Made by a program: the position numbers and the translations under genes. Below are positions 9,893-13,739 of a stretch of 13,739 nt of DNA, one piece after another; within the stretch, counting starts at the first letter, position 1; every line of letters starts with the position of its first letter. This DNA comes from an uncultured Opitutaceae bacterium (GTDB lineage: Bacteria; Verrucomicrobiota; Verrucomicrobiia; Opitutales; Opitutaceae). Location of the stretch: NCBI GenBank assembly GCA_937128785.1, contig CAKZMS010000132.1, positions 1 to 13,739 of the forward strand, written 5' to 3'. The notes beneath the pieces are model-generated. The model was not told the origin of the DNA, did not search any database, and worked only from the letters and a program-made list of their open reading frames with translations.

Positions 9893-10258
9893 ATGTCCAC
9901 AACGACTCGCAACGCCCGTCAGACCCTCATCGGAATTGTCACCAGCCGCTCCGGCGACAAGTCCGTCAAGGTCACCATCCCTTTCAAGATCCCGCACCCG
10001 CGCTACAAAAAGGTCATTAACCGTAAGACCATCGTCCACGTGCACGATGAGAAGAACGAGACCCACGTCGGCGACAAGGTCGAGATCATGGAAACCCGTC
10101 CCCTCAGCCGTCTGAAGCGCTTCCGCGTTCTGCGGATCGTCACGCTCTCCGCCGACGTCGAAGTCGCCGCCGCTCGGGCTGCCGCTGAAGCCAAGCAGGG
10201 CGAAGTCGCTCCCGCCGCTTCCGTCGAGGGTGTCGAAGGTGACACCAAGGACGCCTGA
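9893..10258 (+). CDS. rpsQ: 30S ribosomal protein S17 with C-terminal extension
   Basis: S17 is a primary binder of the 5' domain of 16S rRNA. The conserved OB-fold core is clear: [20 protein letters not shown] near the N-terminus, [31 protein letters not shown] and KRFRVLRIV. At 121 residues it is about 37 longer than E. coli S17. The surplus is a tail after VLRIVTLSA (about residue 87 on), rich in Ala and Glu and ending EGDTKDA, probably flexible. The ATG at 9893 is the family start; the frame is open further upstream but overlaps rpmC. The only SD-like element is TAAGG at 9874-9878, weak and far upstream. The stop is TGA. Confidence 0.97.
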
Positions 10259-13012: not shown

Positions 13013-13375
13013 ATGAATTCAAATCACAAAGCCCAACTCCTGCAGAAGCGCAAATGGCGCATCCGCAAGAAGATCAACGGCACCGCCGCGCGTCCCCGCC
13101 TGACGGTCAAGTTCTCCGCCAAGCACATCTACGCCCAGGCCATCGACGACGATGCCGGCCAGACGCTGGCTTATCTCTCGAGTCTCGATGCCGACATGCG
13201 CAAAGAGAAGCTCGCCGCCAATGTCTCCAGTGCCGAAACCCTCGGCAAGGCCTTCGCCGCCAAGGCGACCGCCGCTGGCATCACCGATGTGGTGTTCGAC
13301 CGCAACGGCGCCCGTTATCATGGCAAAGTAAAAACCTTTGCCGACGCCGCCCGCGAAGGTGGTCTCAAATTCTAA
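13013..13375 (+). CDS. rplR: 50S ribosomal protein L18
   Basis: L18 binds 5S rRNA in the central protuberance with L5. The 120-residue product has the basic N-terminus [20 protein letters not shown], then [16 protein letters not shown], and ends with [19 protein letters not shown], the usual L18 C-terminus. A moderate SD (GAAAGG, 12996-13001) precedes the ATG at 13013. Only seven bases separate its stop from the rpsE start. Confidence 0.97.
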
Positions 13376-13382
13376 GCACGAC

Positions 13383-13739
13383 ATGGCAATGAGCACTCCC
13401 TCAGCTACTCCTCCCTCTTCTGACGCCCCAGCGGGCCAAAACACCGGTCCTGGCGGACCTGGTGGCAATACTGGTCCCGGTGGCCGTGGCCCGGGTGGTC
13501 GCGGTCCTGGCGGACGCGGCCCGGGTGGTCGTGGTCCCGGCGGACGCGGCCCGGGTGGTCGTGGTCCCGGTGGCCGTGGTCCCGGCGGTCGTGGTCCTGG
13601 TGGCCGTGGTCCCGGTGGTCGTGGTCCCGGCGGTCCCCGTCGCGGTCGTGACAATGGCCCCGCGCAGGACGAAGGTCCCGAACTCTTCGAGAAAGTCGTC
13701 TTCATCAACCGCTGTTCCAAGGTGGTCAAAGGTGGCCGT
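13383..13739 (+). CDS. rpsE: 30S ribosomal protein S5, N-terminal part, with GPGGR-repeat extension (3' end outside window)
   Basis: S5 lies at the mRNA entry channel with S3 and S4 and affects decoding accuracy. The frame is set by the conserved ELFEKVVFINRCSKVVKGGR at its visible end (residues 100-119), the normal start of the S5 RNA-binding domain. Ahead of it lies an extension of about 99 residues, against about nine in E. coli. It comprises a Ser/Pro/Ala leader (MAMSTPSATPPSSDAPAGQ), a GPGGPGGNT segment, ten GPGGR units and one GPGGP (residues 31-85), then PRRGRDNGPAQDEGP. The start may be the ATG at 13383 or the in-frame ATG at 13389; neither has an SD. The extension is in frame and stop-free, so it is probably translated, and it should be positively charged and disordered. 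Confidence 0.95.
   Translation, partial: MAMSTPSATPPSSDAPAGQNTGPGGPGGNTGPGGRGPGGRGPGGRGPGGRGPGGRGPGGRGPGGRGPGGRGPGGRGPGGRGPGGPRRGRDNGPAQDEGPELFEKVVFINRCSKVVKGGR
13473..13637 (+). repeat. 15-bp tandem repeat array in rpsE (11 units)
   Basis: Eleven consecutive in-frame 15-bp units encode ten GPGGR and a final GPGGP. Units differ almost only at third codon positions. A 30-bp higher-order period is visible: units 3-4 (13503-13532) and 5-6 (13533-13562) differ at one base, and units 7-8 (13563-13592) and 9-10 (13593-13622) at two. This is the signature of tandem duplication under protein-level constraint. Copy number may vary between strains. Confidence 0.93.

Follow-up and report, generated by a model that had tools for sequence, protein, structure and literature searches.

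An arginine- and glycine-rich repeat tail on ribosomal protein uS5 in an Opitutaceae bacterium and its relatives

Does the long tail of GPGGR repeats in front of a bacterial ribosomal protein belong to that protein, and what could it do on the ribosome? The question is raised by rpsE, the gene for ribosomal protein uS5, at the end of a stretch of 13,739 nucleotides (the window) from an uncultured Opitutaceae bacterium. The window is contig CAKZMS010000132.1 (G000:C132) of a draft genome of 3.64 Mb in 774 contigs that is 82% complete. We find that its tail is an extreme member of a widespread, fast-changing extension of uS5. With a probability of about 0.5, it is a translated and disordered arginine/glycine-rich extension that acts as an RNA-binding tether at the entry of the messenger RNA (mRNA); its place and its RNA binding we infer. 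The end of the window is built as follows.

13383..13739, + strand: 5' part of rpsE (uS5), truncated at the contig end; assigned by the gene order rplF-rplR-rpsE and by alignment with seven congeners
13383..13472, + strand: leader of Ser, Pro and Ala including GPGGPGGNT, residues 1-30
13473..13622, + strand: residues 31-80, an array of ten GPGGR units for which Tandem Repeats Finder gave periods of 15, 30 and 45
13623..13637, + strand: GPGGP unit, residues 81-85
13638..13688, + strand: linker RRGRDNGPAQDEGPELF, mostly kept within the genus in the congener alignment
13689..13739, + strand: first part of the conserved uS5 core (EKVVFINRCSKVVKGGR), with the motif as in the congeners
13013..13375, + strand: rplR (uL18), with its stop 7 bases upstream of the rpsE ATG at 13383

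The GPGGR array and its reading frame

By its core motif and its position in the run of ribosomal genes, the gene is bacterial uS5 (rpsE). The protein has 108 residues before the conserved NRC motif. The initial annotation had described ten GPGGR units and one GPGGP between a short leader and the uS5 core, and this is what was found, with a leader of Ser, Pro and Ala. The array matched itself perfectly over 49 residues at period 5, and when all 177 tails of the survey described below were shuffled in 200 rounds, comparable repeats were obtained in a mean of 0.04 tails. The pattern GPGGRGPGG was found 10 times, with overlaps, in the rpsE array; the 82% complete assembly of the genome has it nowhere else.

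The ten GPGGR units are encoded by 8 DNA versions. At least 9 substitutions link the 8 distinct units, all of them at third positions and with zero amino-acid changes. All third positions of the array are fourfold degenerate, and unconstrained change would cause about two amino-acid changes per silent change. Assuming that two thirds of the hits could alter an amino acid, the all-silent pattern has a P of about 5e-5. Since all differences between the units are silent and at third positions, the amino acids of the array appear to be under purifying selection. This speaks against the main rival explanation, in which the N-terminus of uS5 is a permissive site that collects functionless GC-rich slippage products made of Gly, Pro, Ala and Arg. 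We regard such tolerated low complexity as a serious candidate, though an unlikely one.

Between residue 4 and the core, no in-frame ATG, GTG or TTG was found in any of the eight genus members. Because no start codon lies between the array and the core in these genomes, the tail should be translated. A late start past the repeats, which the initial annotation had named as fatal to its claim, was rejected; it would need a non-standard start. We also rejected an assembly artefact, given the 8 DNA versions of the unit and the presence of such tails in all 7 congeners, two of which (G001 and G003) have single-contig genomes. The truncation of the gene at a contig end in a draft of 774 contigs would fit a mis-assembly, and a wrongly called start would fit the result that no Shine-Dalgarno-like motif was detected upstream of rpsE by a loose test; by the same test the motif was absent at 10 of the 19 usable start codons of the window, rpsE among them, after three of 22 coordinates had been set aside for not being start codons. 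In view of the different unit versions, the tailed congeners and the missing alternative start codon, both kinds of artefact are largely refuted and highly improbable.

The start of rpsE is the ATG at 13383 or the one at 13389. In the genus alignment the first Met is absent in congener G003 and the second Met is invariant; because G003 has no first ATG, 13389 may be the true start. Only 51 bases of the core (13689-13739) lie inside the window before the contig ends. The presumed remainder of rpsE lies at the end of another contig of this genome (G000:C515), and a PF00333 match was obtained on that piece. On the minus strand, an open frame (GPRPPGP..., window 13019-13729) mirrors the array and is probably a by-product of the GC-rich repeat and no gene.

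N-termini of uS5 in the genus and the class

PF00333 was searched in 57 genomes (the own genome and 56 relatives) and matched in 51, the own genome and all 7 congeners included. A total of 238 loci was pooled. Apart from the window, these were one locus each from 49 of the 50 matching relatives (the remaining one, G050, has its match at a contig end and was left out), 80 named loci, partly from the same genomes, and 108 loci from a class sample. In this sample 182 of 188 genomes matched, and the 108 loci consisted of 28 new loci from the search and 80 hand-picked stretches, mostly one per genus. L005 and L227 were dropped, and the remaining 236 loci were reduced to 177 non-redundant ones at 95% core identity. 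As the start of each uS5 frame we used the first ATG downstream of the rplR stop codon, or a GTG or TTG if that ATG was more than 60 bases off. The tail length was counted as the residues before the core motif, excluding the start Met and including the last nine core-like residues, and tails of 40 or more residues were called long.

A tail of GPGGR or GPGGNR units was present in 7 of 7 congeners, so that an artefact absent from related genomes can be dismissed. The pentamer GPGGR occurs in 10 copies in G004 and in G005, in 3 copies in G007 and in 2 copies in G003; the hexamer GPGGNR occurs in 6 copies in G001 and in G002 and in 5 copies in G006. Such variation of repeat units and copy numbers even inside one genus would be expected from tolerated low complexity.

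The initial annotation had regarded a long N-terminus as unusual for a bacterial S5. This was not borne out, as 107 of the 177 non-redundant relatives have long N-terminal parts and uS5 is reported to be extended in actinobacteria as well (PMC6133939, PMC10085706). Among the 107 long tails, 93 contain at least 5 arginines, and an RG or GR pair occurs at least once in 91. The comparison of S5 N-termini across relatives that had been proposed thus revealed long arginine-rich tails as widespread in the class. The array of the window is the longest regular one in the survey; an N-terminal extension of uS5 as such was already known.

The composition of the long tails is not what tolerated low complexity would explain. 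Their arginine fraction of 0.136 was independent of the guanine-plus-cytosine (GC) content (rho 0.02), while the fractions of Ala and Pro followed GC, as that rival would have it. Arginine was preferred over lysine in the tails, with an R/(R+K) of 0.83 compared to 0.45 in the cores of the same proteins (p 2e-16), and the long tails had 4.99 RG or GR pairs compared to 3.01 after shuffling (p 3e-9); the p-values for the set of 177 (composition, RG pairs, repeats) ignore kinship and are therefore too small. Tandem repeats were found in 16 of the 177 tails, compared to 0.04 in the shuffles. Arg and Gly were both present in 15 of these 16, of which 7 are within the window's genus and 8 outside, and the repeat units were unlike each other (GPGGR, GPGGNR, GRGPGQ, GGRGGQ, GGDRGR and GPGGRG). 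Both the clustering of RG and the recurrence of Arg and Gly in unlike units argue against a functionless origin. The same holds for a sample of 387 genomes of the phylum, in which a GPGG-type pattern matched in 15; two or more overlapping matches were found in 4 of them (G000, G003, G131 and G180), all within S5, and in the remaining 11 the matches were outside S5, several in improbable frames.

Several further types of repeat or RG sequence were seen at the same spot of uS5 (L260, L222, L047, L213, L239), namely GGDRGR, GGRGGQ, GRGPGQ, GPGRGGPGR and a tyrosine-bearing RGGYGQRGG that is reminiscent of eukaryotic RGG boxes. In RGG boxes arginines stand in glycine contexts in spaced repeats, as they do in the array of the window. 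GPGGR differs from them in that it contains Pro, has no aromatic residue and is bacterial.

Of the 109 long-tailed representatives, 40 have an in-frame ATG inside the tail. In L027, L039-L046, L049, L051 and others, an in-frame ATG stands shortly before the core (..PAMIEKVVFI), 9 residues upstream of the core motif pattern. Two isoforms of uS5, with and without the tail, would be possible in such relatives and not in the window's genus. Three records titled Akkermansia muciniphila (L072, L081 and L102) were among the closest matches of the Opitutaceae type of uS5 and are possibly misnamed metagenome bins.

In the literature searched (listed titles of open-licence papers, on uS5 tails or extensions of ribosomal proteins in Verrucomicrobia and other bacteria), no description of a class-wide RG-rich region of uS5 was found, and passages of PMC7203096 yielded nothing on uS5.

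Disorder and a possible place on the ribosome

The structure of uS5 from congener L030 was predicted with AlphaFold2. Residues 1-98 had no secondary structure and block values of the predicted local distance difference test (pLDDT) of 46-59, whereas the core was mostly at 85-96. By composition and by this prediction for a congener, the tail thus shares with RPS2 a disordered arginine/glycine-rich extension before the core.

Compared with all sequences of the PDB, the low-complexity tail gave no match at E up to 10. According to the alignment ends, the NR motif begins near residue 19 in the uS5 chains 11bq and 3j9w, which we take to be from Escherichia coli and Bacillus subtilis. Further aligned chains, presumably mycobacterial and from Cutibacterium acnes, have arginine/glycine-rich extensions of 41-49 residues ahead of the NR motif. 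The actinobacterial extension (Mycolicibacterium smegmatis, Mycobacterium tuberculosis, Cutibacterium acnes) is rich in Arg and Gly and at the same end of uS5 as the tail described here, but it is shorter and its aligned parts have no tandem array.

The actinobacterial extension has been reported at the mRNA entry (PMC6133939, PMC10085706). In M. smegmatis it is said to reach the mRNA entry channel (PMC6133939), and in C. acnes a globular density in the mRNA entrance was attributed to it (PMC10085706). The possible role at the mRNA entry in the present lineage, which the initial annotation had proposed, gains backing from published structures of other bacteria beyond analogy alone. Going by these structures, the tail would sit at the mRNA entry channel in this lineage too.

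A tether at this place could work as follows. The tail of the window would be this genus's version of an extension that occurs in much of the class. It would be retained for its composition, with arginines spaced by small flexible residues, and not for a fixed sequence or length, and tandem duplication and loss would alter its length and its unit. From an anchor point at which uS5 borders the mRNA entry channel, the evenly spaced arginines of the tail could make many weak contacts to RNA. The most likely partner would be the incoming mRNA, possibly also ribosomal RNA during 30S assembly. A comparable case in another protein is found in the Rho factor of actinobacteria, where, as in uS5 of the window, an RNA-handling protein carries a disordered addition; these N-terminal insertions are reported to raise the RNA affinity (PMC8828861).

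Alternatively, the tail could be a regulatory plug that fills the mRNA entry channel while a particle is idle, until mRNA displaces it, as proposed for C. acnes on the basis of the density mentioned above. Parts of the uS5 N-terminus are without density according to that paper, which also states that the plug density is missing from the M. smegmatis map (PMC10085706). No ribosome structure for Verrucomicrobiota was found, and the Gly/Pro array has no predicted fold. We consider a plug improbable.

A number of points weigh against the tether. Besides the p-values that are too small, 16 of the 107 long tails lack any RG or GR pair. Not counting the start Met, the N-terminal part is 16 to 149 residues long, and this length correlates with GC (rho 0.46), as it would for a neutral region driven by composition. 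On average the long tails have a net charge of only about +2, and the charge is not positive in 24 of the 107; the mixed charge of many tails weakens a purely electrostatic reading. In the family, 14 of 42 examined members do with a short N-terminus, so the tail has been dispensable in evolution. The placing is taken from actinobacteria. Their uS5 is extended at the C-terminus too, unlike that of congener L030 (L030 has 16 residues past the aligned part, chain 11bq has 19, and chain 5v93, presumably M. tuberculosis, has 41). The two actinobacterial papers moreover disagree on what their maps show (PMC6133939, PMC10085706). Finally, we infer the place on the ribosome, the binding of RNA and any effect on initiation or assembly. 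Several of these points are at the same time in favour of tolerated low complexity, namely the variable and GC-correlated length and also the long and short tails, which change into each other 5 times on a tree of 46 rows. Tolerated low complexity would explain the variation in length and the GC trend; it would not explain the arginine preference, the third-position pattern and the recurrence.

The co-encoded PRMT-fold protein

The eukaryotic RPS2 tail is a disordered, Gly/Arg-rich substrate of the protein arginine methyltransferase (PRMT) PRMT3 or of Hmt1, and it occupies the same end of uS5 as the tail of the window (PMC10216425). As far as a low-complexity query can show, the likeness is in composition only, with no match among PDB sequences, and a separate origin is the best reading. 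Because 14 of the 42 family members examined carry a short uS5 N-terminus and the likeness is compositional, the earlier view that it is a convergence is still the best one. DUF1963, which has been grouped with the PDCD2 chaperones (PMC4275035), was found in 0 of 12 genomes; models of eukaryotic PDCD2 were not searched.

As in the RPS2 system, a PRMT-fold enzyme is encoded in the genome of the window. The PRMT_C model (PF22528) matched in 4 of the eight genus genomes, and the PRMT5 family was found in none of the 8. The protein of the window genome (METHYLTRANSFERASE) has 365 residues and is encoded outside the window (G000:C532:1842-2939, L326). It aligns to solved PRMTs over residues 47-337, and its modelled fold resembles PRMT2, PRMT6 and PRMT3, with the methyltransferase and the beta-barrel. 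It contains DLGTGTG, HEQIGDFLFDE and PHW, the sequences of motif I, the double-E loop and the THW-type loop. The two Glu, the His and the Trp of these motifs are invariant in 36 aligned proteins. The product is a full-length PRMT-fold protein and a putative arginine methyltransferase, with a patchy distribution in the family. The sources of some relatives give these the name protein arginine N-methyltransferase 1. Its gene has as a neighbour a protein with Beta-Casp and RMMBL domains, presumably of a family of RNA-cutting enzymes. No title on bacterial PRMTs was found among those listed in the literature searched (open-licence papers).

A system like that of RPS2 and PRMT3 would mean that this enzyme methylates the arginines of the tail and thereby tunes contacts to RNA or protein. 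The raw counts over the family are in line with it, as long tails were found in 15 of 17 members with the enzyme compared to 13 of 25 without (Fisher 0.02). A test that takes kinship into account did not support it: the tree offered 6 independent pairs with the enzyme on one side only, no more than 1 of which also differed in the tail (sign test p 1), and so few pairs could not have reached 0.05. On the tree the enzyme changes 12 times and the tail 5 times. In the genus, G002 and G006 (only 69% complete) have the tail without the enzyme. The enzyme-bearing genomes G023 and G028 have short tails. An alignment query built from the four genus proteins matched in 18 of the 57 genomes, all 18 within the family. 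In the class sample it matched in 10 of 188 genomes, 8 of these within the family, with the own genome included in both counts; because of this low number, most long-tailed genomes lack the enzyme. The matches in G015, G026, G465 and G488 were distant only. In addition, the PF22528 score of the window genome, 25.2 bits, is under the curated cut-off of 27, whereas scores of 28.1, 33.9 and 34.0 were obtained for the three congener proteins closest to it. We consider a methylated tail of this kind improbable.

The enzymes were also placed in a quick tree with some long branches, which contained no protein from G026 and no database protein of less than 300 residues. The proteins of G000, G004, G005 and G007 fell into a group of 76 rows with a support of 99, apart from those of G001 and G003. 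The source names in this group, where given, include Luteolibacter, Akkermansiaceae and Synoicihabitans. Enzymes of this group occur in exactly the four genus genomes that have at least 3 GPGGR units (G000, G004, G005, G007), with a Fisher value of 0.029 that is post hoc, and by the tree no more than about two independent events lie behind this match. In the genomes with the hexamer GPGGNR, the enzyme is missing (G002, G006) or divergent (G001). An apparently perfect match of PF22528 with the GPGGR tail (4 of 8 genus genomes) fell, as divergent homologues were present in two more congeners and the tree test was unsupportive. A bacterial uS5-PRMT pair, in which the co-encoded enzyme methylates the GRG-spaced GPGGR array and methylation switches a tether at the mRNA entry, is improbable on this evidence and serves as a sharp hypothesis, not as a finding. 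Of the parallel to PRMT3 drawn in the initial annotation, the candidate enzyme has appeared; an independent co-variation of enzyme and tail has not, with few informative comparisons.

An RG-type pattern gave fewer matches than its reversed control in each of the eight genus genomes, and there was no sign of a large further set of RG proteins; with a pattern this loose, some may still exist. One real RG protein is the Rho factor of congener G003 (L325:848-3037, with Rho_RNA_bind and ATPase domains), whose N-terminal part includes an RGD repeat (RGDRGDRGD...). Besides uS5, the genus thus has a second RNA-handling protein with an RG-rich addition. The remaining genes of the window, named from their translations, run from the end of rpoC over rpsL, rpsG and fusA and genes of the S10/spc type into rpsE. 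Among them is rpsQ (PF00366), with an Ala/Glu-rich stretch of about 40 residues past the S17 domain (window about 10170-10258).

RG-rich disordered tails of uS5 are not a eukaryotic speciality. A bacterial class shows them repeatedly at this end of the protein, and there the repeats differ in sequence but resemble each other in composition. Close relatives differ naturally in tail length and repeat type, and comparing them makes a role of the tail at the mRNA entry testable. Because the genome of the window encodes a PRMT-fold candidate for an arginine methyltransferase, the parallel to RPS2 and PRMT3 can be tested as well: candidate enzyme and candidate substrate for the arginine methylation of a bacterial ribosomal tail are found in one genome.
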